NCBI RefSeq assembly: GCF_003696365.1
Contig: NZ_RFFM01000001.1
Coordinates: 1,255,852-1,319,851 of the forward strand
DNA from: Stutzerimonas zhaodongensis
GTDB lineage: Bacteria; Pseudomonadota; Gammaproteobacteria; Pseudomonadales; Pseudomonadaceae
Length of the DNA: 64,000 nt
Direction of reading: 5' to 3'
This document shows positions 439 through 17,489 of the stretch, piece after piece. The notes beneath the pieces were generated by a model. The model had not been told where the DNA came from and searched no databases. It saw only the letters and a list, made by a program, of their open reading frames with translations. Numbering within the stretch: position 1 is the first letter of the stretch; each line of letters begins with the position of its first letter. The position numbers and the translations under genes were made by a program.

Positions 439-637
439 ATGGCCGCATGCATCGAAGCGGCACCACTTAAGCAATGGCCATCTGCTTGCATCAATTTGAA
501 GCACTGTCGGATCGGTCAGGTTTTTTTCGAATCAAGTCCGGGCATGAATTGCTATACCGGTCAGCATAGGCAATCGCTGGCGAATGCAAACCCTTGAAAT
601 AACACAATAAAAACGAAGAATCCGCCACAGTAGCAGT

Positions 638-654
638 GTGGCTCAGGATTTGCT
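638..654 (+). promoter_or_regulatory. Candidate sigma-54 (-24/-12) promoter of the Tsx-like gene
   Basis: GTGGCTCAGGATTTGCT fits the RpoN consensus YTGGCACG-N4-TTGCW. GG is at 640-641 and GC at 652-653, the required 11-bp register, and TGGC, the following C and TTGCT are all present. The predicted start is near 665, leaving a leader of about 56 nt to the ATG at 721. The other 394-720 sequence contains the rimO terminator and an AT-rich stretch with no gene. Two further matches occur in the same region at 4105 and 11774, which strengthens the call. Confidence 0.6.
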
Positions 655-667
655 TAGTCCGACTCAG

Positions 668-683
668 CTGACCGTTCGGCCAA
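668..683 (+). promoter_or_regulatory. Candidate RutR-type operator in the Tsx leader
   Basis: CTGACCGTTCGGCCAA is an imperfect palindrome. It agrees at 10 of 14 defined positions with TTGACCA-NN-TGGTCAA, the known E. coli RutR box. It lies just downstream of the predicted sigma-54 start, where a bound repressor would block transcription. A RutR-like regulator gene begins at 1725. The match is imperfect and untested. Confidence 0.4.
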
Positions 684-720
684 GAAATAAAAGACATGAT
701 GCAAACAACAGGAGCTACCC

Positions 721-1527
721 ATGAACCCCCTATTGACCACCGCTGCACTTACGGGCGGCCTGCTACTGGCGGCCCAAGCCGGCGCGGCACCCATGCTCTG
801 GCAGAACAATAGCCTGACCTATTTGTACGGTAAGGATTTCAAAGTCGATCCGGACACCCAGCACACCTTGACCTTCGAGCACGCAAGCGGCTGGACCTAT
901 GGTGACGTCTTCTTGTTCGTCGACTACAAGTGGAACGAAAGCCAGGACAACAGCGACGCTGCCCGCACCTACTACGGTGAATTCAGTCCACGCTTGTCGC
1001 TCAGCAAGACCACTGGCACCGATATCTCGTTCGGCCCGGTCACCGATGTGCTCATTGGCTTCACCTACGAGCGCGGCGAGGACAGGGTGCAGAATTATCT
1101 GCTCGGTCCGGCTGTAGATCTGGCTGTCCCGGGCTTTGACCGTTTAGCCATCAACACCTCTTACCGCAAGCCTGACGGCATCCGTAACAAGGCGTCAGGA
1201 CAGTGGCAGATCACCCCGACCTGGGCGATCACCATACCGGTTGGCAGCTCCGACATCCTCTTCGACGGCTACATCGACTGGGTCGTCAACGATGCCGGCA
1301 ATAAGGACTCGGACGATTACCAGTCCAAGAACCTGCATATCAACCCGCAGATCAAGTACGACCTGGGCAAGGCGGTCTATCAGAAAGCCGGTCAGCTCTA
1401 CGTAGGTATCGAGTACGACTATTGGTCCAACAAATACGGCATCAAGGATGGCGGATTCGTCAGTAAGAACTTCGTGGGGTCAACCGACCAGAGCGCCTGG
1501 AACGCTATCGTGAAGGTGCATTTCTAA
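721..1527 (+). CDS. Tsx-like nucleoside-specific outer-membrane channel
   Basis: A 268-residue outer-membrane protein of the Tsx/OmpK channel family (Channel_Tsx). The N-terminus has a signal peptide ending near AQAGA-AP. The mature part starts with the family's WQNNSLTYLYGKDF-like segment and continues as alternating amphipathic strands (FEHASGWTYGDVFLFVDY), ending with aromatic F (VKVHF) as outer-membrane barrels do. Family members let nucleosides cross the outer membrane. ACAGGAG at 708-714 is a good ribosome-binding site for this ATG. It stands alone behind its own predicted sigma-54 promoter, just before a RutR-like regulator and upstream of a BMP-type nucleoside importer. The substrate is inferred from family and neighbours. 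Confidence 0.85.
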   Translation: MNPLLTTAALTGGLLLAAQAGAAPMLWQNNSLTYLYGKDFKVDPDTQHTLTFEHASGWTYGDVFLFVDYKWNESQDNSDAARTYYGEFSPRLSLSKTTGTDISFGPVTDVLIGFTYERGEDRVQNYLLGPAVDLAVPGFDRLAINTSYRKPDGIRNKASGQWQITPTWAITIPVGSSDILFDGYIDWVVNDAGNKDSDDYQSKNLHINPQIKYDLGKAVYQKAGQLYVGIEYDYWSNKYGIKDGGFVSKNFVGSTDQSAWNAIVKVHF

Positions 1528-1724
1528 CAGGCGAGTCAGCCCAGCGCCGGGGGACAGCGTCACCAAGCTGATGGCGCTGTTGCTTGACACTGTGCCGCAT
1601 CGTCTCGTCGCCACTGATACAAATTCTGATCCGCACCGATCGCAGTAAAGATGCGCAAAAGCCGGCATGGGCTAGCATTGAACAAGCGCATCGGGCGTGA
1701 TGCGCGCGCACAGGAGACGGACCT

Positions 1725-2390
1725 ATGACCACTTTCGATGCCACGCTTGCCCAAGCATCCGCCGATGACAGACGTACCGGTCGTATTCGTCAGAAGAATG
1801 AGGAGCTGATCCTCTCGGCCGCCGCGCAAGAGTTCGCCCACCACGGCTACAAGGGCACAAGCATGAACGCCATTGCTCTTCGCGCAGGGCTGCCTAAAGC
1901 CAATCTTCACTACTACTTCACCAACAAGCTCGGGCTATATGTCGAGGTCATGCGGCATATCCTCGAGCTCTGGGACAATGCGTTCGACAACCTCACCGAG
2001 GACGACGACCCCGCTACTGCATTGGCAGGCTACATTCGCACCAAGATGGAGTTCTCCCGCAAGCAACCTCAGGCTTCCAAGATTTTCGCAATGGAAGTGA
2101 TCAGTGGTTGCGAGTGCCTGTCCGCCCACTTCAACGAAGACTATCGCGAGTGGTTCCGTGGTCGCGCCGCCGTTTTCCAGGCATGGATTGATGCAGGCAA
2201 GATGGACCCCATCGACCCCATGCACCTGATCTTCCTGATCTGGAGTAGCACCCAGCATTACGCCGACTTCTCCGATCAGATACGCCGTATCACGGGCCAG
2301 CGCCGGGTCAAGAAAGATGATTTCGAACGCGGCACCGAAACGCTGATACGCGTGATTCTGAAGGGTTGCGGCCTGACCCCGCCTCGCTGA
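1725..2390 (+). CDS. RutR-like TetR-family transcriptional regulator
   Basis: 221 residues. The N-terminal TetR helix-turn-helix spans about residues 22-70 (ILSAAAQEFAHHGYKGTSMN, then LPKANLHYYFTNKLGLY). The rest resembles the RutR/YcdC C-terminal ligand domain, with FAMEVISGC, the WIDAGKMDPIDPMHLIFLIW stretch and a final ETLIRVILKG. RutR in E. coli binds uracil/thymine and controls pyrimidine catabolism; relatives control purine and pyrimidine uptake genes. AGGAGACGG upstream of the ATG serves as ribosome-binding site. RutR-like palindromes occur at three neighbouring promoters, which makes this protein their probable regulator. The ligand is unknown: uracil, thymine or a purine base are all possible. 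Confidence 0.85.
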   Translation: MTTFDATLAQASADDRRTGRIRQKNEELILSAAAQEFAHHGYKGTSMNAIALRAGLPKANLHYYFTNKLGLYVEVMRHILELWDNAFDNLTEDDDPATALAGYIRTKMEFSRKQPQASKIFAMEVISGCECLSAHFNEDYREWFRGRAAVFQAWIDAGKMDPIDPMHLIFLIWSSTQHYADFSDQIRRITGQRRVKKDDFERGTETLIRVILKGCGLTPPR

Positions 2391-2493
2391 CCCGGCAATC
2401 GCCTCCTCGGCGGTTCGATGCTTCAATTATGAGCTGGCGCCCTGAGCGTCCTTTCCGGCTCTCGTAGCAAAGTGCGTCGGTGCCAGCGCATGT

Positions 2494-2619
2494 TCAAACC
2501 CGCGCCGCGCAAAGCAGGTAATTGATCAGCTGCTCGGAGACGTAGCGGCCGCGCTGCACGACCGCCTTCGGATATCGGCACAGAGCCAGAATCAGGCAAG
2601 CCCGCGGCAGGATTGACAT
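2494..2619 (-). CDS. Possible 41-residue ORF in the regulator-SDR gap
   Basis: The 309-bp gap 2391-2699 holds no recognised gene. On the minus strand a 41-codon frame from ATG 2619 encodes a hydrophobic start (LILALC) followed by a basic stretch (RYPKAVVQRGRY) and EQLINYLL. The composition looks protein-like rather than random, but there is no convincing ribosome-binding site and I recognise no family. It may be a remnant of a decayed gene. Confidence 0.2.
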   Translation of the reverse strand: MSILPRACLILALCRYPKAVVQRGRYVSEQLINYLLCAARV

Positions 2620-2699
2620 AACGCCGCACCCTGCCCTCTGCCTAGCATTGATTTCACGGCGCATGAGCGCCGACCGATGAACAAGCGGAGGACCTGAAC

Positions 2700-3437
2700 A
2701 TGTCGAACATCGAAGGAAAAATCGTACTCATCACAGGCGCCAGCAGCGGTATCGGCGAAGCAACGGCGCGCCTGCTGGCCGCCAAAGGCGCCACGGTAGT
2801 ACTGGGCGCAAGACGCCTGGAGCGGCTTGAACAGCTCGCCGCCAGTATTACCGAAGCGGGGGGACGTGCGGCCTGTCGCGCGCTGGACGTCACCAATTGC
2901 GATGATACCCAAGCCTTTGTCGACTTCGCCGAGCAACGATTCGGTCGCATCGACGTGATCATCAACAATGCCGGCGTAATGCCCCTTTCGCGGCTCGACG
3001 CCCTGAAGGTCGAGGAGTGGAATCGGATGATCGACGTGAACATCCGTGGCGTGTTGCATGGCATCGCAGCCGGACTGCCACTGATGCAGCGTCAGCGCTC
3101 GGGACAATTCATCAATATCGCCTCCATCGGCGCTTACGCAGTCAGCCCTACCGCCGCCGTCTACTGCGCCACCAAGTACGCGGTACGTGCCATTTCCGAA
3201 GGGCTGCGCCAGGAGGTTGGTGGCGATATTCGCGTCACGCTGGTATCGCCCGGTGTCACCGAATCGGAACTGGCTGAAAGTATCTCCGATGAAGGCGCAC
3301 GATCAGCCATGGATGACTTCCGCCGCATCGCCATCCCAGCCGATGCCATTGCTCGCGCGATCGCATACGCCGTCGAGCAACCGGCTGATGTCGATGTCAG
3401 CGAACTGGTGGTACGTCCGACCGCCAGCCCCTATTGA
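2700..3437 (+). CDS. SDR-family NAD(P)-dependent oxidoreductase
   Basis: 245 residues, a classical short-chain dehydrogenase. Cofactor motif TGASSGIG at 12-19, NNAG at 89-92, catalytic Ser142, Tyr155 and Lys159 (YCATK), and PGV after the last core strand. Arg residues following beta-2 (GARRLERL) point to NADP(H) preference. GGAGG lies 10 bp before the ATG. The next gene starts 11 bp after the stop, so the two form an operon with a carboxymuconolactone-decarboxylase-family protein. The substrate cannot be read from the sequence. Its place between a RutR-like regulator and a nucleoside importer may be incidental. Confidence 0.9.
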   Translation: MSNIEGKIVLITGASSGIGEATARLLAAKGATVVLGARRLERLEQLAASITEAGGRAACRALDVTNCDDTQAFVDFAEQRFGRIDVIINNAGVMPLSRLDALKVEEWNRMIDVNIRGVLHGIAAGLPLMQRQRSGQFINIASIGAYAVSPTAAVYCATKYAVRAISEGLRQEVGGDIRVTLVSPGVTESELAESISDEGARSAMDDFRRIAIPADAIARAIAYAVEQPADVDVSELVVRPTASPY

Positions 3438-3447
3438 GGACTCCGCG

Positions 3448-3900
3448 ATGAGGCTTTTCACTGGAAACACGTTAAGCGCAGCCTGCCTTGGGCTGATTGG
3501 ATCACTGACATTCGCCTCGCTGGAAGCGGTCGGCAACGAGCGCCACGCGCGCGGCGTCGAGGTCATGGATCACTTGTCTGGCGGTGCTGGTCAACCTGTC
3601 CTCGAAGCGCTGCGCGAGGACTATCCGTTTCTCGCCGACGGCATTACCGAGTACGCCCTGGGCGATGTCTGGGGGCGCAGCGGTCTGGACGATCGCACTC
3701 GCCAGCTCGCCGTGGTCGCCGCGTTCGCCGCGCAGGGCAATCTGCCTTACATGCAGGTTCACGCCGGCTACGCGCTGCGCCTTGGCGTCACCCGCGATGA
3801 GCTTAAGGAAGTGGTGTACCTGACCACAGTCACCGCCGGCTTCCCTCGCGCGATCGATGCGGCGCAGGCGCTGCGCGAGGTGGCGGATCCCGAACGATAG
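3448..3900 (+). CDS. Carboxymuconolactone-decarboxylase-family protein with signal-like N-terminus
   Basis: 150 residues from the ATG at 3448, which follows the SDR stop by 10 bp; the frame is open further upstream but only inside the SDR. The first 25 residues (MRLFTGNTLSAACLGLIGSL...) form a hydrophobic leader that could be a secretion signal or anchor. The body has the CMD fold pattern: YALGDVWGRSGLDDRTRQLA, then HAGYALRLGVTRDELKEV and a terminal AIDAAQALREV. No CXXC pair of the AhpD type is present, so peroxidase activity is unlikely. CMD relatives without the catalytic cysteines include gamma-lactone decarboxylases and many uncharacterised proteins. Reaction unknown. Confidence 0.8.
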   Translation: MRLFTGNTLSAACLGLIGSLTFASLEAVGNERHARGVEVMDHLSGGAGQPVLEALREDYPFLADGITEYALGDVWGRSGLDDRTRQLAVVAAFAAQGNLPYMQVHAGYALRLGVTRDELKEVVYLTTVTAGFPRAIDAAQALREVADPER

Positions 3901-4096
3901 CGCGCTGCTAAAGCTCGCTGCTCGGAGAGCAGCCGATCAGCGAGCCCTGCGCCATTCAACCCATTCTTGCTCCGCCCCAGACCGGTGCAAGACGGCTCGA
4001 CGCCACCAACGCCGGCACCAATTCGAAGCACTGGCAACTCCCGACCCTTTTTGGGCATGACTCTCTAACTCCCGGTCAAACGCCCGCAGCGGAATC

Positions 4097-4112
4097 CTGA
4101 CTGTCTGGCCAG
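4097..4112 (+). promoter_or_regulatory. Candidate RutR-type operator at the ABC operon promoter
   Basis: CTGACTGTCTGGCCAG agrees at 9 of 14 defined positions with the E. coli RutR box and has the same half-site spacing. It overlaps the -24 element of the sigma-54 promoter that follows. This is the weakest of the three sites taken alone; its position relative to the promoter is the same as at 11766. Confidence 0.3.
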
Positions 4113-4121
4113 CTTTTTGCT
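4105..4121 (+). promoter_or_regulatory. Candidate sigma-54 promoter of the nucleoside ABC operon
   Basis: CTGGCCAGCTTTTTGCT matches YTGGCACG-N4-TTGCW, with GG at 4107-4108 and GC at 4119-4120. Apart from one base, the first 16 positions are identical to the element at 11774 before the cognate binding-protein gene. The predicted start is near 4132, 25 nt before the ATG at 4157. The rest of 3901-4104 holds no gene. Confidence 0.7.
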
Positions 4122-4156
4122 ATTCACTCGGACATGAATACCCAGCGGACACCCTC

Positions 4157-5701
4157 ATGCCCGATACAGCCACTCCACGTCTGCAGCTGACCGGTATCAC
4201 CAAGCGATACCCGGGCTGCCTGGCCAACGACCATATCGACCTTAGCATTCACGCAGGAGAGATCCACGCCCTGCTTGGTGAGAACGGTGCTGGGAAGAGC
4301 ACCCTGATGAAAATCATCTACGGGGTGACTCAGCCCGACGCCGGAGAGATTCGCTGGGAAGGCGAGCCGGTGATCATGCGTGACCCGGCATACGCTCGTG
4401 ATCGCGGGATCGGAATGGTGTTCCAGCACTTCTCGTTGTTCGAAACCCTGAGCATTGCGGAGAACGTTGCCCTGGCGCTGGGTGCCGATGCCGGGACGCC
4501 AAGGCAGCTGGAGTCGAAAATTCGGGAGGTGTCGCAGCGCTACGGCATGCCGCTAGAGCCGCATCGCCTGGTCCACAGCCTCTCGATCGGCGAGCGCCAA
4601 CGAGTGGAAATCGTCCGCTGCCTGATGCAAGACATCAAGCTGCTGATTCTCGACGAGCCCACATCCGTGCTCACACCACAGGAAGCCGACGATCTGTTCG
4701 TGGTGCTACGCCGGCTGGCTGCAGAGGGCTGCAGCGTCCTGTTCATCAGCCACAAGCTGAACGAGGTACGCGCACTTTGTGAAAACGCAACGGTGCTGCG
4801 TGGCGGGAAAGTCTCGGGCGAGTGCGTACCGGCTGAATGCACGGACATGGATCTGGCGCGACTGATGGTTGGCGATGCCGAGGGGCTTGAGGCCGAGTAC
4901 CCGAAAGCCAGCGGTGGTGCGCCGTTCCTGCGGATCGAGGCGCTGTCCTGGCGCAACGACGATCCGTTCGGTGTATCGCTAGAAGACCTGATGCTGGAGG
5001 TACGAGCCGGGGAAATTGTCGGTATCGCCGGGGTCGCGGGCAACGGGCAGGACGAGCTGCTCGCGCTGCTCTGCGGAGAACACCGACTTCCCCGTGAGCA
5101 AGGTCCGCGCATCCGCTTCCTCGAATCACCTGTAGCCCATCTGCCGCCGGACACCCGTCGCCGCCTAGGGATGACCTTCGTCCCGGCGGAGCGGCTGGGG
5201 CACGGCGCGGTTCCAGAAATGAGTCTGGCCGATAACGCTTTGCTGACAGGCTTTCAACAGGAGGGGATGGTCAGCAGTGGGCTGATTCGCCATGGTCGAG
5301 TCGAGGCGTTCGCCCGGCGCATCATCGACACCTTTGCGGTCAAGGCGCCCGGCACCCATACCACCGCACGCAGCCTCTCGGGAGGTAATCTGCAGAAATT
5401 CATCCTCGGTCGCGAGATCCTGCAGCAACCGAAACTGCTGATCGCCGCGCACCCGACCTGGGGTGTTGACGTCGGCGCAGCGGCCGCAATTCACCGCGCG
5501 CTGATCGAGCTGCGCGATGCAGGCACCGCCATCCTGGTGATTTCCGAAGACCTAGAGGAGTTGTTCCAGATCAGCGACCGGATCGCTGCGCTTAGCCACG
5601 GCCGTCTATCTTCGCTGCAGTCGACAGCTCATACCACCGCGACTGATGTCGGACGCTGGATGGCAGGACAGTTCGATCACACCACGCCTACCGCCGCCTG
5701 A
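4157..5701 (+). CDS. BMP-type nucleoside ABC importer, tandem ATP-binding protein
   Basis: 514 residues with two fused ATPase domains, as in simple-sugar and nucleoside importers (NupA/NupO/RnsB type). Domain 1 has Walker A GENGAGKST at 41-49, signature LSIGERQRVE and Walker B LLILDEPTSVLTP. Domain 2 has the usual degenerate Walker A (GVAGNGQDEL) and the signature LSGGNLQKFILGRE. The second Walker B region reads AAHPTWGVDVGAA, where family members more often show QPTRGLDVGA, so the Arg is replaced by Trp. It powers uptake by the two permeases that follow. The ribosome-binding site is weak. The stop codon is followed 10 bp later by the first permease. Confidence 0.9.
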   Translation: MPDTATPRLQLTGITKRYPGCLANDHIDLSIHAGEIHALLGENGAGKSTLMKIIYGVTQPDAGEIRWEGEPVIMRDPAYARDRGIGMVFQHFSLFETLSIAENVALALGADAGTPRQLESKIREVSQRYGMPLEPHRLVHSLSIGERQRVEIVRCLMQDIKLLILDEPTSVLTPQEADDLFVVLRRLAAEGCSVLFISHKLNEVRALCENATVLRGGKVSGECVPAECTDMDLARLMVGDAEGLEAEYPKASGGAPFLRIEALSWRNDDPFGVSLEDLMLEVRAGEIVGIAGVAGNGQDELLALLCGEHRLPREQGPRIRFLESPVAHLPPDTRRRLGMTFVPAERLGHGAVPEMSLADNALLTGFQQEGMVSSGLIRHGRVEAFARRIIDTFAVKAPGTHTTARSLSGGNLQKFILGREILQQPKLLIAAHPTWGVDVGAAAAIHRALIELRDAGTAILVISEDLEELFQISDRIAALSHGRLSSLQSTAHTTATDVGRWMAGQFDHTTPTAA

Positions 5702-5711
5702 GAGCCCCATC

Positions 5712-6818
5712 ATGCTGTTATCCCTCGAACCACGCGGCTACGAATCACGCGCGATGCTCTGGGTGTCGCCAGTGCTCGCCGCCCTGCTGACCCTGATCAG
5801 TGGCGCGCTGCTCTTCGCCGCGCTGGGCCACCCGCCTCTGGAAACCCTGCGAGTGCTGTTGATCGACCCCGTCAGTGACCTTTACGGGGTGTCTGAACTG
5901 CTGGTCAAGGCACTGCCGATCCTGCTCTGCGCCCTGGGGCTGGCCGTGGTCTACAGCGCTCGGATCTGGAATATCGGCGCTGAAGGCCAGTTGCTCATTG
6001 GCGCCCTGGCGGGCAGCGCTGTGGCCGTCCACATCATCGAATGGGATTCGCGTTGGGCGCTGGTGCTCAGCCTGCTCATCGGCACGCTCGGCGGTGCAGC
6101 CTGGGCCGGCCTCTGCGCTTGGCTGCGCACGCAGTTCAATGCCAATGAAATCCTGACCAGCATCATGCTCAACTACATCGCGTTGAATCTACTGCTGTTC
6201 GCGGTGCACGGGCCGTTGAAAGATCCGGAGGGTTTCAACTTCCCCGAGTCGGCCATGTTTGGTGACGCCACGCGGCTGCCACAGTTGTTCGAGGACCTGC
6301 GCGTGCATGGCGGCTTCTACTTCGCGCTACTGGCGCTGGTGGTGGTATGGGTGTTGTTGCAGAAGAGCTTTCTTGGTTTTCAGATCAAGGTGCTTGGTCT
6401 CGACAAACGCGCGGCAGGCTTCGTCGGCTTCCGCGAGAAAGGGCTGATCTGGATTGCGCTGCTGATCAGCGGAGCGCTGGCGGGGCTCGCCGGAGTTGCG
6501 GAGGTCGTCGGCCCTATCGGCCAGCTGGTACCTCAGGTTTCACCCGGTTATGGCTACGCCGCGATCACCGTCGCCTTCCTCGGCCGCCTCAATCCCGTCG
6601 GTATCGTTTGCGCCAGCTTGCTCATGGCCCTGCTCTATCTGGGCGGTGAGAACGCTCAGATGGCTGCCAACTTGCCTCAGTCCATCACCCAGCTGTTCCA
6701 GGGCATGGTGCTGTTCTTTCTGCTGGCCTGCGACGTGCTGATTCTCTATCGACCGCGCCTCAAGACGTGGACTCGTAGAACACAAGCTCCGGTGCTCCGT
6801 CCAGAGGCCACGGCGTGA
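5712..6818 (+). CDS. BMP-type nucleoside ABC importer, permease 1
   Basis: 368 residues from the ATG at 5712; the frame continues upstream but only inside the ATPase gene. It belongs to the BPD_transp_2 permease family with about ten hydrophobic segments, beginning MLWVSPVLAALLTLISGALL. Family signatures are WNIGAEGQLLIGALAGSA near residue 90, ANEILTSIMLNYIALNLLLF near 155, and the cytoplasmic GFREKGLIWIALLISGALAG stretch. The length is typical for the larger subunit of the NupB/NupP pair. Second gene of the operon driven by the predicted sigma-54 promoter at 4105. Confidence 0.9.
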   Translation: MLLSLEPRGYESRAMLWVSPVLAALLTLISGALLFAALGHPPLETLRVLLIDPVSDLYGVSELLVKALPILLCALGLAVVYSARIWNIGAEGQLLIGALAGSAVAVHIIEWDSRWALVLSLLIGTLGGAAWAGLCAWLRTQFNANEILTSIMLNYIALNLLLFAVHGPLKDPEGFNFPESAMFGDATRLPQLFEDLRVHGGFYFALLALVVVWVLLQKSFLGFQIKVLGLDKRAAGFVGFREKGLIWIALLISGALAGLAGVAEVVGPIGQLVPQVSPGYGYAAITVAFLGRLNPVGIVCASLLMALLYLGGENAQMAANLPQSITQLFQGMVLFFLLACDVLILYRPRLKTWTRRTQAPVLRPEATA

Positions 6819-6873
6819 TCACTCTCCCCTGTTCTTCTCAACGGTTGCTGCGCGCAGCTCGAGGCTTGCTTTG

Positions 6874-7800
6874 ATGGATATCGATCTGCTGACTAATATC
6901 TTTTACGCCATGGTCCGTACAGGTACGCCGCTGCTGCTGGTGGCGCTCGGCGAGCTGGTCTGCGAAAAGTCTGGCGTCCTCAACCTGGGTCAGGAAGGCA
7001 TGATGCTGTTTGGCGCGGTAGCGGGATTCATCGCCGCCTTCGCCACCGGCAGCCTCTGGCTTGGCGTGGTTTTCGCGTGTCTGGGCGGCATGCTCCTGTC
7101 GCAGCTGTTCGCACTGGTCGCGCTGGGCTTCAATGCCAATCAGGTCGCTACCGGCCTGGCGCTGACCATCTTTGGCGTCGGCCTCTCCTCGTTCATCGGG
7201 GCGGGTTGGGTCGGCAAACCGCTTGCCGGCTTCGAGCCGATCGCAATCCCGTTTCTCAGCGATATCCCTCTGATCGGCCGCATGCTCTTCGCCCAGGACC
7301 TGCTGGTCTACCTGTCCTTTGCGCTTTTCGCCCTGGTTGCCTGGGTGCTGTTGAAAAGCCGCATCGGGCTGATCATCCAGGCGGTAGGCGAAAATCCCAA
7401 CGCCGCCAGCGCCATGGGCCTGCCGGTATTGCGGGTTCGCGCGCTGGCAGTGCTTTTCGGCGGCGCCATGGCCGGGTTGGCTGGGGGTTATCTGTCGCTC
7501 GCTTACACCCCGATGTGGGCAGAGAACATGACCGCGGGGCGCGGCTGGATCGCCCTGGCTCTGGTGGTCTTCGCCAGCTGGCGTGTGGGCAGAGTGCTGC
7601 TCGGGGCCTACCTGTTCGGGCTTGCAAGCATCCTGCATCTGGTTGCCCAAGGGATAGGCCTGTCGATCCCCGGCAACTTGCTGGCGATGCTCCCGTACGT
7701 GGCGACCATCGTCGTGCTGGTGTTGCTGTCACGCGACGCGATTCGCACCCGCCTGTACGCACCGGTATCGCTCGGACAACCCTGGAAAGCCGGCCATTGA
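6874..7800 (+). CDS. BMP-type nucleoside ABC importer, permease 2
   Basis: 308 residues. I start at ATG 6874; the codon before it, TTG 6871, is also possible. It is the shorter permease (NupC/NupQ type) with the family motif SGVLNLGQEGMMLFGAVAGF near residue 30, FNANQVATGLALTIFG near 88 and GENPNAASAMGLPVLRVRAL near 170. It has about eight to ten membrane segments. It is the third and last gene of the operon, ending at a hairpin that separates it from the convergent P-type ATPase. The binding protein expected for this importer is not adjacent but lies at 11840. Confidence 0.9.
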   Translation: MDIDLLTNIFYAMVRTGTPLLLVALGELVCEKSGVLNLGQEGMMLFGAVAGFIAAFATGSLWLGVVFACLGGMLLSQLFALVALGFNANQVATGLALTIFGVGLSSFIGAGWVGKPLAGFEPIAIPFLSDIPLIGRMLFAQDLLVYLSFALFALVAWVLLKSRIGLIIQAVGENPNAASAMGLPVLRVRALAVLFGGAMAGLAGGYLSLAYTPMWAENMTAGRGWIALALVVFASWRVGRVLLGAYLFGLASILHLVAQGIGLSIPGNLLAMLPYVATIVVLVLLSRDAIRTRLYAPVSLGQPWKAGH

Positions 7801-7807
7801 TCGGCAT

Positions 7808-7838
7808 CGAAAGCGGAGACTGCAGGGTTCCGCTTTCG
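7808..7838. terminator. Hairpin between convergent permease and P-type ATPase genes
   Basis: CGAAAGCGGA and TCCGCTTTCG form a perfect 10-bp stem with an 11-nt loop, 8 bp after the permease stop. No strong T run follows on either strand, so it may act as a bidirectional terminator or RNA-stability element. Confidence 0.55.
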
Positions 7839-7860
7839 CCGCCTGGCTCTCGTACAGCTG

Positions 7861-10578
7861 TCAGGACGGGCCGAGGCCCAGCCGACGGAGCAGCATTTTT
7901 TCAATTTCCAGAATGACCAGCACCGCTACGCCTGCAAGCACCACGAATATGCCGGTGCTCAGAGGCAGCGCCTCGGAGGCGAACAGCGACTGCATGAATG
8001 GCGCGTAAGTGAACAGCAACTGCAGTGCGAACACACCGAACACGGCCATCAGCACGCGCGGCGTACCCTTCACACCCTCCAGGGTAAACGAGGGCGACTT
8101 CAGGTAGCGCACGCTGAAGAGATAGAACACTTCCATGCAGACCAGTGTATTGACGGCTACGGTACGCGCCGCCTCCACCGTCGCGCCCTGGGAAAGCATC
8201 CACTGGTACATGCCGAAGATGCCAGCCAGGAACAGCGCCGAGACAAAGAAGATCCGCCAGATCACGAACCGCGACAGCATAGGTTCGTCCGGCCGTCGCG
8301 GTGGACGCTGCATCACATCCGCTTCGGTAGGCTCGAACGCCAGTACCATCGCCAGCGCGACCGAGCTGACCATGTTGACCCATAGCACCTGTACGGGAGT
8401 GATCGGCAACGCGATGCCGAGCAGCACGGCAAGGAGCAGCGAAAGTGACTCACCTCCGTTGATGGGCAGCAGGAAAGTCACGGTCTTGCGCAGGTTGTCG
8501 TAGACAGTGCGGCCCTCTTCCACGGCATGCGCAATCGATGCGAAGTTGTCGTCCGCCAGAACTATCGAACCCGCCTGCTTGGCCGCCTCGGTTCCCTTCA
8601 TGCCCATGGCCACGCCCACATCGGCCTGCTTCAGTGCTGGTGCGTCGTTGACGCCGTCGCCAGTCATGGCGACTACTTCACCATTGGCCTGTAGCGCACG
8701 CACCAGGCGCAGCTTGTGCTCAGGACTGGCGCGCGCGAACACTCGGGCTTCGGCAACCGCCTGGCGCATGGCCGCTTCGTCCATCTGCTCCAACTCGGGG
8801 CCGGTAATCGCCTTGACGTCATCACCCATTCCGAGCTGCCTGGCGATGGCACTGGCCGTCACACCGTGGTCGCCAGTGATCATCACTACCCGGATGCCAG
8901 CAGCGCCGCACTGTGCCACCGCGCGTATCGCCTCCTCACGTGGCGGATCGATGATGGCGACCAGCCCGAGCAAAGTGAGCTCGCTGGCGACGTCTTCATG
9001 CCCAAGCATGTCCTTGCCGTTGGGCAGGCGGCGCCGAGCAAGCGCGAGAACGCGACGACCTGCTTGCGCCTGAGCCTCGACGTGCGCGTGCCACCGCGCA
9101 GGTTCCAGAGCGAGCTCCTCACCGTCCGCCATAAGCTGATGCGAGCACATGCTCAGGATGCGTTCTGGCGCGCCCTTGACCAACACTTCGCTGCCACCGT
9201 CAGTCGTGTGCAGCGTCGCCATGAAGCGATGCTCGGACTCGAAGGGGATGACATCCAGCCGCGGACGATCGACCTTCAAGCTCGCCGGCGACAGTCCTGC
9301 CTTCATCGCCAGGGTCAGTAACGCCCCCTCGGTCGGGTCGCCTGCCAACGTCCACATCTGGTCCGTCTCGTGCAAACTGGCGTCGTTGCATAGGGCAGCT
9401 GCTTCCATCAAGCCGAGAAACGCCACCGAGCGCTCTAGCAATGCAACCGGCTCGATTGCCACGCCTTCGAACACCAGCGCTCCCTGCGGCGCGTAACCGG
9501 CGCCTTCGACCACCAGTGATTGACCCGCGCAGATCACCTCCTGCACCGTCATCTCATTGCGTGTAAGGGTGCCGGTCTTATCGGAGCAGATCACCGTCAC
9601 CGAACCCAGGGTCTCCACCGCTGGCAGCCGCCGGATCACCGCGTTGCGCGTCGCCATCCGCTGCACGCCGATGGCCAGCGTGATAGTCATGATGGCCGGC
9701 AGCCCTTCCGGAATTGCCGCTACCGCAAGTCCTACGGCGGCAATGAACATCTCGCCCGCGCCCATGCCGCGTATCAGCGTCCCGAACAGAAAAAGTATCG
9801 CGCTGGTCGCGAGGATCACCATCGTCAGAACGCGGCCGAATTCTTCCATTTTGCGCAGCAGCGGCGTGGTGCCCTGCTCGACCGACTCCAGCATGCGACC
9901 TATCCGACCAATCTCGGTTGCCGCCCCGGTAGCGACGACCACTGCGCGTGCTTGCCCTTGGGTCACCAGCGTACCGGCGTAGCCCATGCAGACGCGGTCA
10001 CCGATAGGCGCGTCATCGGCCACCGCCTCGACCTGCTTGTCTACCGGAACGGATTCGCCAGTGAGCGCCGCCTCGTCGATGCGAAGGTTGCGTGCCTGTA
10101 GTAATCGCACGTCCGCAGGCAGGCTGTCGCCGGAAGCCAGCAGCACCACATCGCCGGGTACCAGCTCGGCGGCATCGATGTCCTGCTGACGTCCATCACG
10201 CAACACCACCGCATGTGGAGCGAGCAGGTGGCGGATCGCCTGTAGCGCTTTCTCCGCCTTGCCTTCCTGCACAAAACCGATGGCGACGTTGAGCACCACC
10301 ACGGCCAGGATCACGAAGGTATCTACCCAATGCCCCATCAATGCGGTCACCAGTGCAGCAGCGATGAGCACATAGAGCAGCACGTTGTTCAGGTGACGCA
10401 TCAGTCGTTGCAACACGCTCGCGGGTTTCGCTTCGTCGAGACGGTTTGGGCCGTACCGGTAGAGACGCTCCTGCACCTGCTCGTGGGTCAAACCGGTGTT
10501 CGAGGTCTCAAGCTCACGCAACGCCTCGTCAGCCTGGCGCGCATGCCAGCGATTGGTTTGTGATTGCTGTTCGGGCAT
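7861..10578 (-). CDS. P2-type cation-transporting ATPase (SERCA/Ca2+-like)
   Basis: 905 residues from ATG 10578, preceded by a strong AGGGGGG ribosome-binding site; an upstream in-frame extension of 18 codons is less likely. N-terminal cation-ATPase domain, TGES at 173-176 (actuator), phosphorylation site DKTGT at 333-337, GDGVNDAP and a C-terminal membrane domain. The fourth membrane helix carries PEGLP at 290-294 (AAIPEGLPAI), as in P2A calcium pumps. Heavy-metal pumps have CPC or SPC at this position, so those are excluded. The ion is probably Ca2+ or a related cation, inferred from this motif only. It runs opposite to the flanking nucleoside genes and separates the importer from its binding protein. 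Confidence 0.88.
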   Translation of the reverse strand: MPEQQSQTNRWHARQADEALRELETSNTGLTHEQVQERLYRYGPNRLDEAKPASVLQRLMRHLNNVLLYVLIAAALVTALMGHWVDTFVILAVVVLNVAIGFVQEGKAEKALQAIRHLLAPHAVVLRDGRQQDIDAAELVPGDVVLLASGDSLPADVRLLQARNLRIDEAALTGESVPVDKQVEAVADDAPIGDRVCMGYAGTLVTQGQARAVVVATGAATEIGRIGRMLESVEQGTTPLLRKMEEFGRVLTMVILATSAILFLFGTLIRGMGAGEMFIAAVGLAVAAIPEGLPAIMTITLAIGVQRMATRNAVIRRLPAVETLGSVTVICSDKTGTLTRNEMTVQEVICAGQSLVVEGAGYAPQGALVFEGVAIEPVALLERSVAFLGLMEAAALCNDASLHETDQMWTLAGDPTEGALLTLAMKAGLSPASLKVDRPRLDVIPFESEHRFMATLHTTDGGSEVLVKGAPERILSMCSHQLMADGEELALEPARWHAHVEAQAQAGRRVLALARRRLPNGKDMLGHEDVASELTLLGLVAIIDPPREEAIRAVAQCGAAGIRVVMITGDHGVTASAIARQLGMGDDVKAITGPELEQMDEAAMRQAVAEARVFARASPEHKLRLVRALQANGEVVAMTGDGVNDAPALKQADVGVAMGMKGTEAAKQAGSIVLADDNFASIAHAVEEGRTVYDNLRKTVTFLLPINGGESLSLLLAVLLGIALPITPVQVLWVNMVSSVALAMVLAFEPTEADVMQRPPRRPDEPMLSRFVIWRIFFVSALFLAGIFGMYQWMLSQGATVEAARTVAVNTLVCMEVFYLFSVRYLKSPSFTLEGVKGTPRVLMAVFGVFALQLLFTYAPFMQSLFASEALPLSTGIFVVLAGVAVLVILEIEKMLLRRLGLGPS

Positions 10579-10781
10579 TGGATCCCCCTGATCATGATTC
10601 GCTGATGCCAAATGCGACAAAGCCGTTGCCACATGAGAGCCGAATAAGGATCAACATAGCCATCGCGGGGACATGCATTGCAACACAGATGCAGCGGTGG
10701 AATGTCGCACTGGCACGCCCCACCTCAATGTCGCGGCACCGCGCTATGCTTGATCGCCAATCCCACACTCAAGGATCTCTC

Positions 10782-11462
10782 ATGCAAAAAACCGTACTTG
10801 TCGTTGGCGCTTCCCGTGGTCTGGGCCTCGGCCTGGCCAAGCAGTTTTCCAACGAGGGCTGGCAGGTGATTGCCACGATACGTAATCCGCAACAGTCGGA
10901 TGCGCTCAAGCAAATCCCGCAGGTACGTGTAGAAACCCTCGACATGACCGATGCGCAGAGCATCGAAGCGCTTGGCAAGCGCCTGGCAGGCATGCGACTG
11001 GATGTGCTGTTCGTCAATGCCGGCGTTGCCGGGCCGCAAAACAAGCCGGCCACCGAGGTCAACGAAACGGAGGTTGGGCAGCTGTTCTTCACCAACGCCG
11101 TCGCGCCGCTGCGGCTGGCCAAACAGCTGCTGCCAATGGTCAATGCCGAGCGAGGCGCCATCGTTTTCATGAGCTCCATCCTGGGCAGCGTGGAAACCGG
11201 ACCTGGCATGGGCATGTCGCTCTATGGCGCAAGCAAGGCTGCACTCAATCATATGACTCGCACATTCGTGTCGGAGCTGGGCGAGACCGGGCTCACCATA
11301 TTGTCCATGCACCCGGGTTGGGTGAAGACCGACATGGGGGGTGATGAAGCTCCGTTGGATGTCGAGACCAGTACACGCGGTATGGTCGGACAGGTTACCA
11401 AGGCGCTGGGCCGTGGTGGTCATCACTACCTCGACTACAAAGGCGATCACTTGCCCTGGTGA
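10782..11462 (+). CDS. SDR-family oxidoreductase (C-factor-like)
   Basis: 226 residues from ATG 10782 with AAGGA 7-12 bp before it. Cofactor motif GASRGLGLG at 9-17, NAG at 79-81, Ser131/Ser132, Tyr148 and Lys152 (YGASK), then HPGWVKTDMGG. The short form and the closing HHYLDYKGDHLPW resemble the SDR subgroup that includes Myxococcus C-factor-like proteins. It is transcribed divergently from the P-type ATPase across about 200 bp. The substrate is unknown, and nothing links it functionally to the nucleoside genes except position. Confidence 0.88.
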   Translation: MQKTVLVVGASRGLGLGLAKQFSNEGWQVIATIRNPQQSDALKQIPQVRVETLDMTDAQSIEALGKRLAGMRLDVLFVNAGVAGPQNKPATEVNETEVGQLFFTNAVAPLRLAKQLLPMVNAERGAIVFMSSILGSVETGPGMGMSLYGASKAALNHMTRTFVSELGETGLTILSMHPGWVKTDMGGDEAPLDVETSTRGMVGQVTKALGRGGHHYLDYKGDHLPW

Positions 11463-11673
11463 TTCGCCATCCAGACGCGGCGTCGTTCGTTGCCTTCGCA
11501 GCCTCTGGTGCTGCGTTGGTCCTGATACGTTCAGCCGTATCTGACTGGCCCCCATCGTCTTGTCTCACCGCTGCCGCATTTGTCCCGCATGCAATGAGCG
11601 TGTTGCGGACCGTCCATCGTTGAATACCGCGCGCCCAACCGCCCTCATCGCCCCAGACTGCCGCACCGCCCTA

Positions 11674-11697
11674 GTGCGCAGGCAACGCGCTGCGCAC
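11674..11697. promoter_or_regulatory. Inverted repeat upstream of the BMP-gene promoter
   Basis: GTGCGCA-N10-TGCGCAC is a perfect 7-bp inverted repeat located about 80-100 bp upstream of the -24 element. That is a usual distance for an enhancer-binding activator of sigma-54 promoters. It is not a good NtrC consensus site (TGCACCA-N3-TGGTGCA), so the binder is unknown. It lies in the gene-free stretch 11463-11839. Confidence 0.3.
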
Positions 11698-11765
11698 CAC
11701 TTGTGTTCCAGAAAGGCACGCGCACTTACTCATCGTTGCCAAGTATCGCGTGCCCATACGGCGAA

Positions 11766-11781
11766 CTGTCCAACTGGTCAG
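11766..11781 (+). promoter_or_regulatory. Candidate RutR-type operator at the BMP-gene promoter
   Basis: CTGTCCAACTGGTCAG is a near-perfect palindrome (six of seven positions symmetric). It agrees with TTGACCA-NN-TGGTCAA at 11 of 14 defined positions, the best of the three sites. It overlaps the -24 element of the sigma-54 promoter, so binding would exclude the polymerase. Confidence 0.5.
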
Positions 11782-11790
11782 CTTTTTGCA
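11774..11790 (+). promoter_or_regulatory. Candidate sigma-54 promoter of the BMP binding-protein gene
   Basis: CTGGTCAGCTTTTTGCA fits YTGGCACG-N4-TTGCW, with GG at 11776-11777 and GC at 11788-11789. The predicted start is near 11801, 39 nt before the ATG. Its first 16 bases differ by only one from the element at 4105 before the importer operon, which argues for common control. Confidence 0.7.
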
Positions 11791-11839: not shown

Positions 11840-12931
11840 ATGCAGAACAAACCACGGAGCACCTTGCTGCGCAGCCTCGTCGCCGCCATCGGCTTCACCA
11901 CCGCATTGTCCACCGGCGCTGCCATCGCGGCCGATCCGTTGAAAGTCGGCTTCGTATACGTCGGCCCGATTGGTGACCACGGCTGGACCTATCAGCACGA
12001 AATGGGTCGTCAGTACTTGGAAAAAGAGCTCGGTGATCAGGTCAAAACGACCTTCGTGGAGAACGTAGCCGAAGGCGCCGATGCCGAGCGGGTGATTCGC
12101 AACATGGCCAAGGGGGGCTATGACCTGATCTTCACCACATCCTTCGGTTACATGAACCCGACGCTCAAGGTTGCTAAACAATTCCCCAAGGTGACCTTCG
12201 AGCACGCTACTGGCTACAAGCAGGACAAGAACCTCGGCACCTATCTGTCCCGATCGTATGAAGGACGTTATGTAGGCGGCTTTCTCGCAGCGAAGATGAC
12301 CAAGAGCAAGAAGATCGGCTACATCGCATCCTTCCCGATACCCGAGGTCATCCGCGATATCAATGCCATTCAGCTGGCACTGGACAAGTACAACCCCGGC
12401 ACCGAGATCAAGGTGGTGTGGGTGAATTCCTGGTTCGACCCAGGCAAGGAAGCCGATGCGGCCAACGCGCTGATCGATCAAGGTGTCGATGTGGTCTTCC
12501 AGCACACCGACAGCCCGGCACCGATCCAGGCGGCCGAGCGACGTGGCGTTTACTCCGTTGGTTACGCATCCGACATGGCTCATTTCGGCCCGAAAGCTGT
12601 GCTGACCTCCATTGTCAACGATTGGGGGCCGCACTATGCCCAGTCGGCAAAAGGCGTGATCGAGGGTACCTGGAAGCCACAGGACTTCTGGGGCGGCCTG
12701 GCAGAAGAAACCATCAGCCTACCGATCAGTGACCTGGTACCGGCTGACGTGAAAACAGAGGCAGAACAGATCATCGCCGGCATCCGCAGCGGCGAGTTCC
12801 ATCCGTTCACGGGTCCCATCATGGATCAGTCCGGCGCCGTCCGCATTGCTGAAGGCGCAACCGCCAGCAACGCTGAACTGGCCTCAATGGATTACTACGT
12901 AAACGGCCTCAAAGCCGAACTGCCGAAGTAA
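11840..12931 (+). CDS. BMP-family nucleoside-binding periplasmic protein (PnrA/Med type)
   Basis: 363 residues from ATG 11840, which has ACAGGAG 9 bp upstream; the frame is open 30 codons further but without a ribosome-binding site. A signal peptide with basic start and hydrophobic core ends at TGAAIA-ADPL. The mature protein shows the BMP fold: LKVGFVYVGPIGDHGWTYQH, NMAKGGYDLIFTTSFGYM, FEHATGYK and VGFLAAKMTKSKKIGY-like segments. BMP proteins capture nucleosides in the periplasm for tandem-ATPase importers. The matching importer is the operon 4157-7800, 4 kb away and sharing the same promoter type. Confidence 0.9.
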   Translation: MQNKPRSTLLRSLVAAIGFTTALSTGAAIAADPLKVGFVYVGPIGDHGWTYQHEMGRQYLEKELGDQVKTTFVENVAEGADAERVIRNMAKGGYDLIFTTSFGYMNPTLKVAKQFPKVTFEHATGYKQDKNLGTYLSRSYEGRYVGGFLAAKMTKSKKIGYIASFPIPEVIRDINAIQLALDKYNPGTEIKVVWVNSWFDPGKEADAANALIDQGVDVVFQHTDSPAPIQAAERRGVYSVGYASDMAHFGPKAVLTSIVNDWGPHYAQSAKGVIEGTWKPQDFWGGLAEETISLPISDLVPADVKTEAEQIIAGIRSGEFHPFTGPIMDQSGAVRIAEGATASNAELASMDYYVNGLKAELPK

Positions 12932-13081: not shown

Positions 13082-14053
13082 ATGAATACGCTCCCCATCA
13101 TCGACATCGCGCCGCTCTTCGCCTCGGAGGAGACAGGCTGGCACGAAGTCGCCCGACAGATCGACACGGCATGCCGTGACTGGGGTTTTTTCTACATTCG
13201 CAATCATCCGATCAGCGCCGAGCGCATCGCTCAGCTGAAGGACGCTGCAGAACGGTTCTTCGGCTTGCCGGTCGAGCAGAAACTGCAGATCGATATCACC
13301 AAAAGCACGCATCACCGGGGATACGGCGCCGTTGCGACTGAACAGCTCGATCCAGCCAAGCCAAGCGACCTCAAGGAAACCTTCGACATGGGTTTCCACA
13401 TGCCGCACGACCACCCTGACGTATTGGCCGGAAAACCGCTGCGCGGCCCCAACCGCCACCCCGATATCGAGGGCTGGCCCACCCTGTTCGAGCAGCATTA
13501 TCAAGACATGCATTCGCTTGCCTGCACCTTGCTGCGAGCGCTGGCCGACGCGCTCGGCGTCGAATCTGCCTTTTTCGATGAGCGTTTCATCGAGCCCATC
13601 AGCGTATTCCGCATGATCCATTACCCGCCGCGTCAGACGGCTACGTCCCCGGAGCAACAAGGAGCTGGCGCTCATACCGACTATGGCTGCATCACCCTGC
13701 TCTATCAGGACGAAGCCGGCGGGCTGCAGGTTCAGAATGTGCGTGGTGAATGGATCGATGCGCCGCCAATCGAGGGAACCTTCGTGGTCAACATCGGCGA
13801 CATGATGGCGCGCTGGAGCAATGATCGGTACAAGTCCACACCGCACCGGGTGATCAGCCCTCTGGGTGTCGATCGCTATTCGATGCCATTCTTCGCTGAG
13901 CCGAATCCCGACACGCTCATCAGTTGCCTGCCCGGCTGTCAGGACGAAGCCAATCGGCCCAAGTATCCGGACACCACATGTAGCGCCTATATGCTTTCGC
14001 GTTTCGCTGAAACCTACGCCTACCGCCGGGAGGCGCCAGCCGCAGCGAGCTGA
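13082..14053 (+). CDS. 2-oxoglutarate/Fe(II) oxygenase, isopenicillin-N-synthase family
   Basis: 323 residues. The N-terminal DIOX_N part starts LPIIDIAPLF; the jelly-roll part follows. Iron ligands are His198 and Asp200 (AHTDYGCITLL) and His255 (STPHRV); the 2-oxoglutarate-binding R-x-S is Arg265-Tyr266-Ser267. All key residues are intact. CGGAG lies 7-11 bp upstream of the ATG. It follows the BMP gene by 150 bp with no strong terminator, so it is probably co-transcribed. Characterised relatives hydroxylate diverse small molecules; fungal thymine 7-hydroxylase belongs to this broad group. Oxidation of an imported base or nucleoside is therefore an attractive inference, not a demonstrated function. 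Confidence 0.87.
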   Translation: MNTLPIIDIAPLFASEETGWHEVARQIDTACRDWGFFYIRNHPISAERIAQLKDAAERFFGLPVEQKLQIDITKSTHHRGYGAVATEQLDPAKPSDLKETFDMGFHMPHDHPDVLAGKPLRGPNRHPDIEGWPTLFEQHYQDMHSLACTLLRALADALGVESAFFDERFIEPISVFRMIHYPPRQTATSPEQQGAGAHTDYGCITLLYQDEAGGLQVQNVRGEWIDAPPIEGTFVVNIGDMMARWSNDRYKSTPHRVISPLGVDRYSMPFFAEPNPDTLISCLPGCQDEANRPKYPDTTCSAYMLSRFAETYAYRREAPAAAS

Positions 14054-14180: not shown

Positions 14181-15857
14181 TCAGGCTCGCTGTGGTTGCT
14201 TGCGCACCGGCGAGCCATTGGCGACGTAATAGGCAGCGGTGCTGCGTGGCAACGGTTGCCGACCACGGATGTGGTCAGCAATTTTCTCGGCGATCATGAT
14301 GGTGGTGGCGTTGAGGTTGCCGGTGATGATCTGCGGCATGATCGACGCATCCACTACACGCAAGCCTTCAACGCCGTGCACGCGGCCCTGCCCATCCACC
14401 ACCGCCATATCGTCCGTGCCCATCTTGCAGGAGCAGGATGGGTGATATGCCGTCTCGGCGTGTTCACGGACGAAGGCGTCGAGGTCTGCATCGCTCTGCG
14501 CATCCGCTCCCGGGCTCAGCTCCTTGCCACGGAAGGGGTCTAGCGCCGGCTGATTGATGATCTCCCGCGTCAGGCGTATGCCATCACGAAACTCCTCCCA
14601 GTCCTGTTCGTGGGACATGTAGTTGAACAGGATGCTGGGATCGACTTTAGGGTCCGTCGAACGAATCTGGATCCTTCCGCGGCTCGGCGAGCGCATCGAC
14701 CCAACATGCGCCTGAAAGCTGTGGCCGTCATGAGCGTTACTGCCGTTATAGCTGACCGCCACCGGCAGGAAGTGAAACTGGATATTCGGCCACTCGAACG
14801 CTTCACGGCTGCGAATGAAGCCGCCGGCTTCGAACTGGTTGCTGGCGCCGACCCCGGAGCCAAGAAAAAGCCATTCAGCGCCGATGGCCGGCTGGTTCCA
14901 CCACTTGAGGGCCGGATATAGCGAAACCGGCTGCTTGCACTCGTACTGCAGATACATTTCCAGATGGTCCTGCAGGTTCTGCCCAACACCAGGCAGATCA
15001 TGGACAACCTGAATACCCAATCCCTTGAGCAGTGGCGCCGGGCCAATACCAGAACGTTGCAGCACCTGCGGCGAGGCGATGGCGCCGCCGCATAACAGTA
15101 CTTCACGCCGTGCCCGAGCCGTGGTCGGCTGTTCACGGCCACGCAGATATTTCACGCCGATGGCACGCTTGCCTTCGAACAACACACGGTCGGTCACGGC
15201 ATGGGTAACGATGGTCAGGTTCGGACGATCCTTGGCCTGGTCAAGGTAACCACGTGCAGTGCTGGCACGACGCCCATTCGGCGTGACGGTGCGGTCCATC
15301 GGACCGAAGCCTTCCTGCTGGTAACCATTGAGGTCATCGGTCTTGGGATAACCGGCCTGAACCCCAGCCTCGACCATTGCATTGAACAGCACGTTATTGC
15401 CGGGCTTGGGCGTGGCCACGCTGACCGGCCCATCGCCGCCGTGATAATCGTTAGGGCCGATATCGCGAGTTTCGGCCTTGCGGAAGTAGGGCAAGCAATC
15501 CAGATAAGACCAGTCATCGAGGCCGGGCATCGTCGCCCAGTTGTCGTAGTCCATCGCATTACCGCGGATGTAGCACATGCCATTGATCAATGACGACCCG
15601 CCCAATCCCTTGCCGCGCCCACAATCCATGCGGCGGTTGTTCATGTGCGGTTCAGGATCTGTTTTATAAGCCCAGTTATAGCGGGTGCCCTGCAGCGGAT
15701 ATGCCAGCGCCGCTGGCATCTGGGTGCGGAAATCCAGCCGATAGTCCGGGCCGCCCGCCTCCAGCAGCAATACGCTGACCTCGGCGTCCTCGGTCAGGCG
15801 TGCAGCCAGCGTGTTCCCAGCAGAACCGGCACCGATAATGATGTAGTCGTATTCCAT
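14181..15857 (-). CDS. betA: Choline dehydrogenase
   Basis: 558 residues, a GMC-family FAD oxidoreductase. N-terminal ADP-binding motif [13 protein letters not shown] begins at residue 9. The GMC signature segment [19 protein letters not shown] lies near residue 80. Catalytic His is in the [10 protein letters not shown] region, and the C-terminal conserved segment is [16 protein letters not shown]. It oxidises choline to betaine aldehyde at the membrane. It is the last gene of a betT-betB-betA series on the minus strand and lies 59 bp after betB. Its C-terminus faces the oxygenase gene across 127 bp in which GGCGGG/CCCGCC at 14131-14153 can pair. Confidence 0.93.
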
Positions 15858-15916
15858 GAATCCTCCTGTTGCCCGGGCGAGCAGCTGTGTTGCGCGCCCG
15901 GACCTGCTCGATCGCT

Positions 15917-17389: not shown

Positions 17390-17489
17390 TTCATACCTCT
17401 TGCAATGTCCAGGCAGCGGAGACCTCGTGGGTCACCGCTGATGTGTGGAAATGCCATGGCCGGGCCGGTAGGCCCGTCATGGCCAGGAG

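Follow-up and report, generated by a model that had tools for sequence, protein, structure and literature searches.

Sigma-54-type promoters combined with putative RutR-type operators at predicted purine-uptake genes of Stutzerimonas zhaodongensis

We analysed 64,000 nucleotides (nt) of Stutzerimonas zhaodongensis DNA (NCBI RefSeq assembly GCF_003696365.1, contig NZ_RFFM01000001.1, forward-strand positions 1,255,852 to 1,319,851), hereafter the window, in which three sigma-54-type promoters precede the genes of a predicted purine-uptake route. These genes, all on the plus strand, encode a Tsx-family outer-membrane channel (tsx, 721..1527; PF03502 Channel_Tsx, 46.5 bits, cut-off 27.2), a RutR-like TetR regulator (1725..2390; PF08362 TetR_C_3, the YcdC-type C-terminal domain, 185 bits, and TetR_N, 54 bits, both above cut-off), the ATPase of an ATP-binding cassette (ABC) transporter (4157..5701; ABC_tran, 164 bits) with two permeases (5712..6818 and 6871..7800; BPD_transp_2, 182 and 123 bits), and a BMP/PnrA-type periplasmic binding protein (11840..12931; Bmp PF02608, 194.7 bits, cut-off 24.1). 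The promoters, also on the plus strand, are GTGGCTCAGGATTTGCT before tsx (site 1, 638..654, a degenerate copy), CTGGCCAGCTTTTTGCT before the ABC operon (site 2, 4105..4121) and CTGGTCAGCTTTTTGCA before the binding-protein gene (site 3, 11774..11790). Alongside them we found a layer of putative RutR-type operators, overlooked in the initial annotation of this DNA; at two of the three promoters, operator and -24 element are fused.

The solved structures closest to the binding protein are 3s99 and 6pi5, the latter an atrazine-binding protein, and the best named relative of the binding protein, from Stutzerimonas stutzeri, shares 95% identity with it. In related pseudomonads, the neighbourhood holds purine genes; for example, the cluster at L148, one pseudomonad locus read closely, also contains 8-oxoguanine deaminase and adenosine deaminase genes, and at L098 and L112 a xanthine permease gene lies near the TetR gene. 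Because of these structural relatives and purine-gene neighbours, the likeliest substrates are predicted to be purine bases or purine nucleosides. For the uptake of nucleosides or bases proposed initially, the cargo is more likely a purine base or purine nucleoside. A putative B6 ABC transporter (an NCBIfam equivalog) was considered and rejected on score, the binding protein reaching 71 against 400 bits and the ATPase 434 against 670.

All three promoters lie where the initial annotation had placed them, and the GG-N10-GC register of the -24 and -12 elements is correct in three of three. The match to YTGGCACG-N4-TTGCW that it had claimed for them fails, with three mismatches at site 1, two at site 2 and three at site 3. 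Moreover, with up to two mismatches allowed, this consensus occurs nine times in the window against 7.9 expected, which is chance level, so that the consensus alone proves nothing for these sites. The remaining particulars were reproduced: sites 2 and 3 are identical at 15 of their first 16 bases, and the predicted starts near 665, 4132 and 11801 leave 56, 25 and 39 nt, respectively, to the ATG. The initial annotation had also suggested scoring the sites with an RpoN matrix; with one built from 42 intergenic sigma-54 sites that PMC4591121 gives for E. coli, sites 1, 2 and 3 rank 22, 1 and 4 among 127,968 window positions, and by these ranks site 1 is weak taken alone and sites 2 and 3 are strong. 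The genome (4.67 Mb, 27 contigs) contains an rpoN gene.

Footprinting was carried out on 107 binding-protein loci (27 same-genus and 80 named loci), 93 ATPase loci (26 same-genus loci and the 67 of the 80 named loci that have the gene plus its upstream region within the stretch) and 35 tsx loci. A GG-N10-GC promoter was kept at 93 of 93 ATPase, 102 of 107 binding-protein and 30 of 35 tsx loci. The binding-protein loci without it are L144 and four in which the gene starts about 55 nt past the permease gene (L132, L133, L134 and L139), and the tsx loci without it are L004, L135, L143, L154 and L160; in loci from other families of the order, the promoter was absent before the ATPase gene (four loci, L088-L091) and before the binding-protein gene (three loci, L059-L061). 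After removal of identical rows (leaving 28 tsx, 84 ATPase and 92 binding-protein rows), TTGC, which lies outside the operator, was invariant in all three sets, and the invariant -24 words were TGGC at tsx, TGGCCA at the ATPase gene and TGGTCA at the binding-protein gene, where GG and GC in the three sets and TCA in the binding-protein set, having been used to select the rows, are not evidence, the unselected figures being the locus counts given above. The tsx promoters of relatives are near-classic sigma-54 promoters, as in TTGGCGCGGCGCTTGCT. Footprinting in relatives places the three sites well above chance, and the prediction first made, that sigma-54 controls the genes for channel, importer and binding protein, is well supported through this conservation.

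The conserved block extends beyond the promoter. In the left arm upstream of the -24 element, CTGA is invariant at the ATPase loci and followed by C in 83 of 84 non-identical rows, and at the binding-protein loci TG and C are invariant and T is present in 87 of 92. These letters, which the sigma-54 consensus leaves unspecified, are conserved as strongly as the promoter, and together with TGGYCA they give the palindrome YTGWCC-N4-GGWCAR. At sites 2 and 3 this palindrome shares bases with the -24 element, and at site 1 it flanks the promoter. Putative operators of this type on the plus strand of the window are CTGTCGGATCGGTCAG upstream of tsx (504..519, 11 of 12 letters), abutting an NtrC-like dyad, CTGACCGTTCGGCCAA downstream of the tsx promoter (668..683, about +4 to +19), CTGACTGTCTGGCCAG overlapping the -24 element of the ABC operon (4097..4112, 10 of 12 letters) and CTGTCCAACTGGTCAG overlapping that of the binding-protein gene (11766..11781, 12 of 12 letters). 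With 10 to 12 of the 12 letters of YTGWCC-N4-GGWCAR, they resemble the RutR palindrome, TTGACC-N4-GGTCAA.

The arrangement at tsx is instructive. The downstream operator, with at least 10 of 12 letters, was found at 30 of 30 promoter-bearing loci, beginning 12-16 nt past the C of the -12 element, as compared with 0 of 30 for the reversed control and 22 of 1500 shuffles, a shuffle control that covers the downstream copy only. An upstream copy lies 135-144 nt before GG in 20 of 22 Stutzerimonas-type loci (the exceptions being L013, where it lies at -107, and L021, where none was found) and at -21 in the eight other loci. Since the palindrome stands apart from the -24 and -12 elements here, promoter and operator appear to be separate modules at tsx and fused at the other two promoters. 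Our first idea, that the sites are TetR operators instead of sigma-54 sites, was dropped because tsx shows both as separate modules.

Upstream of the promoters we found NtrC-like dyads, scored as letters out of 14 of TGCACCANNNTGGTGCA; the NtrC consensus, TGCACCAnnnTGGTGCA, is given in PMC8743547. On the plus strand of the window, TGCATCAATTTGAAGCA (487..503, 11 letters) precedes tsx, CGCCCCAGACCGGTGCA (3973..3989, 11 letters) and GGCACCAATTCGAAGCA (4014..4030, 10 letters), 41 nt apart, precede the ABC operon, and the weak dyad CGCACCGCCCTAGTGCG (11662..11678, 10 letters) precedes the binding-protein gene; the shuffle p values in the window, each referring to the best dyad of a promoter, are 0.03, 0.003 and 0.16, respectively. 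Within the genus, dyads of at least 10 of 14 letters were present upstream of the ATPase gene in 26 of 26 regions (against 0 of 26 with the pattern reversed and 39 of 520 shuffles), upstream of the binding-protein gene in 25 of 27 (0 of 27 and 59 of 540) and upstream of tsx in all 17 regions read (1 of 17 and 26 of 340), and the pair about 41 nt apart recurs upstream of the ABC operon in most same-genus loci. Among the named loci, such dyads were found at 54 of 68 ATPase, 46 of 74 binding-protein and seven of eight tsx regions, with 0, 3 and 0 in the reversed controls. The genome also has an ntrC gene (790 bits, cut-off 559). The initial statement that no NtrC enhancer site of good quality was present thus did not hold across relatives, in which dyads of 10-11 letters are conserved upstream, although the dyad at site 3 is weak taken alone. 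The link to nitrogen that it had drawn from sigma-54 gains support from these dyads and, in other pseudomonads, from purine-catabolic neighbours, namely the two deaminase genes of L148.

The fused operator and promoter can be written as one word, TGWCYNNNTGGYCANNNNNTTGCW, which with zero mismatches gave 63 matches in 31 of 41 genus genomes, the reversed pattern giving none in every genome. Two matches were found in 26 genomes, three in three, one in two (G004, which is 71% complete, and G028, where the match is off-target judging by its letters) and none in ten, and the paired words correspond, by their letters, to sites 2 and 3. The third word, in G026, G030 and G059, lies about 307 nt upstream of xdhA-xdhB, with the xdhA product of G026 and the xdhB product of G059 exceeding the xanthine dehydrogenase cut-offs. 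The operator consensus, fixed beforehand, was then tried on xdhA: at 30 xdhA loci read, from the 38 genomes with a full-length xdhA match, an operator of at least 11 of 12 letters was present within 110 nt of xdhA in 30 of 30, against 0 of 30 for the reversed control and 11 of 3000 shuffles. The fused form is present at three of these loci, eight others have a site apart from the operator that exceeds a score of 10 with the sigma-54 matrix, and neither is present at 19, so that the operator extends past the sigma-54 genes. We also noticed two RutR-type palindromes in tandem, with a spacing of about 22-23 nt (as with TTGACTTTTGAGTCAA and TTGACCGAAAAGTCAG), before xdhA in nearly all of the loci listed, L238-L267.

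From the conserved elements, their spacing, the synteny and the protein families, we infer the binding proteins, direction of control, ligand and substrate of the following scheme. Each of the three promoters is probably a sigma-54 promoter that is driven from an NtrC-like enhancer and for which a RutR-like TetR repressor acts as a gate. A shortage of nitrogen would activate the enhancer-binding protein, and a purine-type ligand would release the repressor, which would have to vacate the operator that overlaps the -24 element at the ABC operon and at the binding-protein gene, or that flanks the promoter at tsx. The purine channel, importer and binding protein would then be made only if nitrogen is short and the repressor is released, that is, under an AND gate. 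For the fused word of pseudomonads, we hold it an even chance that one half of a purine-responsive TetR operator doubles as the -24 element of a sigma-54 promoter. Repressor and sigma-54 polymerase would in that case compete for the same bases, each compromising its ideal sequence, and the repressor would veto closed-complex formation itself.

Several observations weigh against this scheme. The footprint rows are not independent, all genomes being related and some being present in both loci sets. The -24 words TGGCCA and TGGTCA contain two or three letters that differ from those of the sigma-54 consensus, and part of the distant loci (those outside the 54 of 68 and 46 of 74 counted above) are without a good NtrC-like dyad. 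Genome-wide, the operator with one mismatch allowed gave 81 and 85 matches, fewer than the 150 and 147 of the reversed control, and its letters alone therefore cannot define a regulon. It occurs without mismatch at four places: the first is site 3, another precedes a gene that by eye resembles a guanine/hypoxanthine-type permease gene but gave no NCBIfam match at E 1e-20, a third lies within a gene resembling by eye a flagellar hook gene and the fourth precedes a gene without evident link. No operator was found upstream of the tetR gene of the window when looked for there. Genome G030 retains importer and operators without a TetR of the window type, and a TetR relative of at least 60% identity occurs within the stretch read in only 44 of the 80 named loci, for which reason we keep the scheme at probable.

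A first alternative concerns the identity of the repressor. The window TetR has RutR as its best solved relatives, but scores 199 bits against a cut-off of 368 with the RutR equivalog TIGR03613, indicating that it is not RutR. A paralog is encoded elsewhere in the genome, at L199 (G000:C1:1780000-1793000), where a RutR-like TetR (167 bits) stands beside a xanthine permease and a second tsx-like gene. Upstream of that permease lies the operator CTGACCGATTGAACAG, with no good sigma-54 site. This operator and the case of G030 make the paralog a serious rival, and the operators of this type before xdhA in 30 of 30 loci point the same way; it is possible, if the less favoured reading, that the paralog is the actual repressor or that both proteins share the operator sites. 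However, the gene for the window TetR is placed between tsx and the ABC operon, and across 37 genus genomes importer and window-type TetR occur together in 25, importer only in two, TetR only in five and neither in five (Fisher p 0.009, uncorrected for descent). Two further observations concern these regulators: a plasmid search with the TetR region gave only relatives of an SDR gene among the matches listed, and at G008:C3:84396-85001 the reading frame of a RutR-like TetR contains a single internal TGA, G008 being a genome in which no xdhA match was found.

As to the activator, the genome encodes 15 NtrC-type proteins that match the central part of the model, NtrC included, and the dyads usually consist of one good and one poor half-site, so that an enhancer-binding protein other than NtrC could be imagined. 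We regard this as unlikely, as the dyads fit the published NtrC consensus far above the reversed and shuffled controls and are paired before the ABC operon, and a search for GAFTGA-type motifs gave no activator gene in the window and three convincing ones among the 80 named loci, all of them at a distance of over 7 kb from the gene for the binding protein. The repressor and sigma-54 layers could also be collapsed into one. If TGGYCA is read as part of the operator and the chance-level consensus matches are given weight, a TetR operator with a sigma-70 promoter might suffice and the -24/-12 likeness would be a by-product; this is quite improbable, since TTGC is invariant outside the operator, promoter and operator are separate at tsx and no conserved -10-like block follows downstream. 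Conversely, the overlap of the palindrome with the -24 element at two promoters could be an accident of the -24 context at purely sigma-54 promoters, but the left arm is conserved where sigma-54 makes no demand, and the palindrome is separate from the tsx promoter and also precedes xdhA, where a strong sigma-54-like site is mostly absent, leaving this reading highly improbable. Sigma-54 promoters with NtrC-like enhancers and a RutR-like repressor remain our preferred explanation.

Other genes surround the uptake genes. A gene for a 2-oxoglutarate (2OG)-Fe(II) oxygenase (13082-14053) follows the binding-protein gene, and all 80 of the 80 named loci have a relative no more than 3 kb downstream. 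Among solved chains, an ethylene/succinate-forming-type enzyme and thymine dioxygenase are the nearest to it, and on this basis it may oxidise a modified base. Between permease gene 2 and the binding-protein gene, a large minus-strand gene (7861-10632) resembles by eye a P-type ATPase; its position is taken by an 8-oxoguanine-deaminase-like gene in L148 (scanned) and in L098 and L125 (by eye). Minus-strand genes (14181-19556) that by eye resemble those for choline dehydrogenase, betaine aldehyde dehydrogenase and a BCCT transporter adjoin the purine genes.

In the classical mode of control, a distant activator acts on a sigma-54 promoter at which the polymerase already waits. A -24 element that contains the operator of a repressor would, if true, be a compact second lock with a testable rule, nitrogen signal AND repressor release, and repression would act at the closed-complex step, which is left open at most sigma-54 promoters. 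It would also tie a RutR-like TetR family, distinct from RutR, to Pseudomonas purine genes for channel, importer, xanthine permease and xanthine dehydrogenase. The fused word is a short pattern without control matches in 41 genomes, able to find such promoters.

Among the papers listed in a literature search, none on this Pseudomonas arrangement was seen, most subscription journals lying outside its coverage, so that this is not proof of absence; in two papers on nitrogen control in Pseudomonas, searched by terms only, none of the purine terms looked for was found. In Burkholderia cenocepacia, purine catabolism genes (xdhAB and the urate oxidase cluster) are under sigma-54 and NtrC, but an operator fused to the -24 element is not described, and Tsx/BMP uptake is not the subject, in the accessible part of that paper (PMC5491218). 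The binding-protein, ATPase and permease families are those of BMP/PnrA-type ABC importers, from which the present locus differs in that the gene for the binding protein forms a unit of its own, with a separate promoter and at a distance of about 4 kb from those for the permeases. S. zhaodongensis also has a rut operon of its own (L201, G000:C27:66000-82000; RutA 722 bits, cut-off 498, RutB also above cut-off), with a RutR-like gene beside rutA-rutB. This operon likewise has a sigma-54-like site, two NtrC-like dyads and a GGACC-N4-GGTCC box, but the box, GGACCAGGTGGTCC, starts 67 nt upstream of the sigma-54 site (68 nt for the 16-mer), as in the E. coli layout, and its outer letters differ from YTGWCC-N4-GGWCAR. 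Another 2OG-oxygenase-like open reading frame and a second BMP-type importer were seen near it. In E. coli K-12 rutA, a RutR-like palindrome, TTGACCGTTTAGTCCA, begins 81 nt before GG, whereas in the window the operator overlaps the -24 element or flanks the promoter, and the targets are purine-uptake genes. The sigma-54 site of E. coli rutA is bound in vivo (PMC4591121), and its promoter combines NtrC sites with a RutR site, the RutR palindrome being about 16 bp (PMC10891134); sigma-54, NtrC and RutR-type parts are thus united in one promoter for base catabolism there as well. The arrangement described here appears to be this known logic in a different layout, common to both in its parts and different in targets and geometry.

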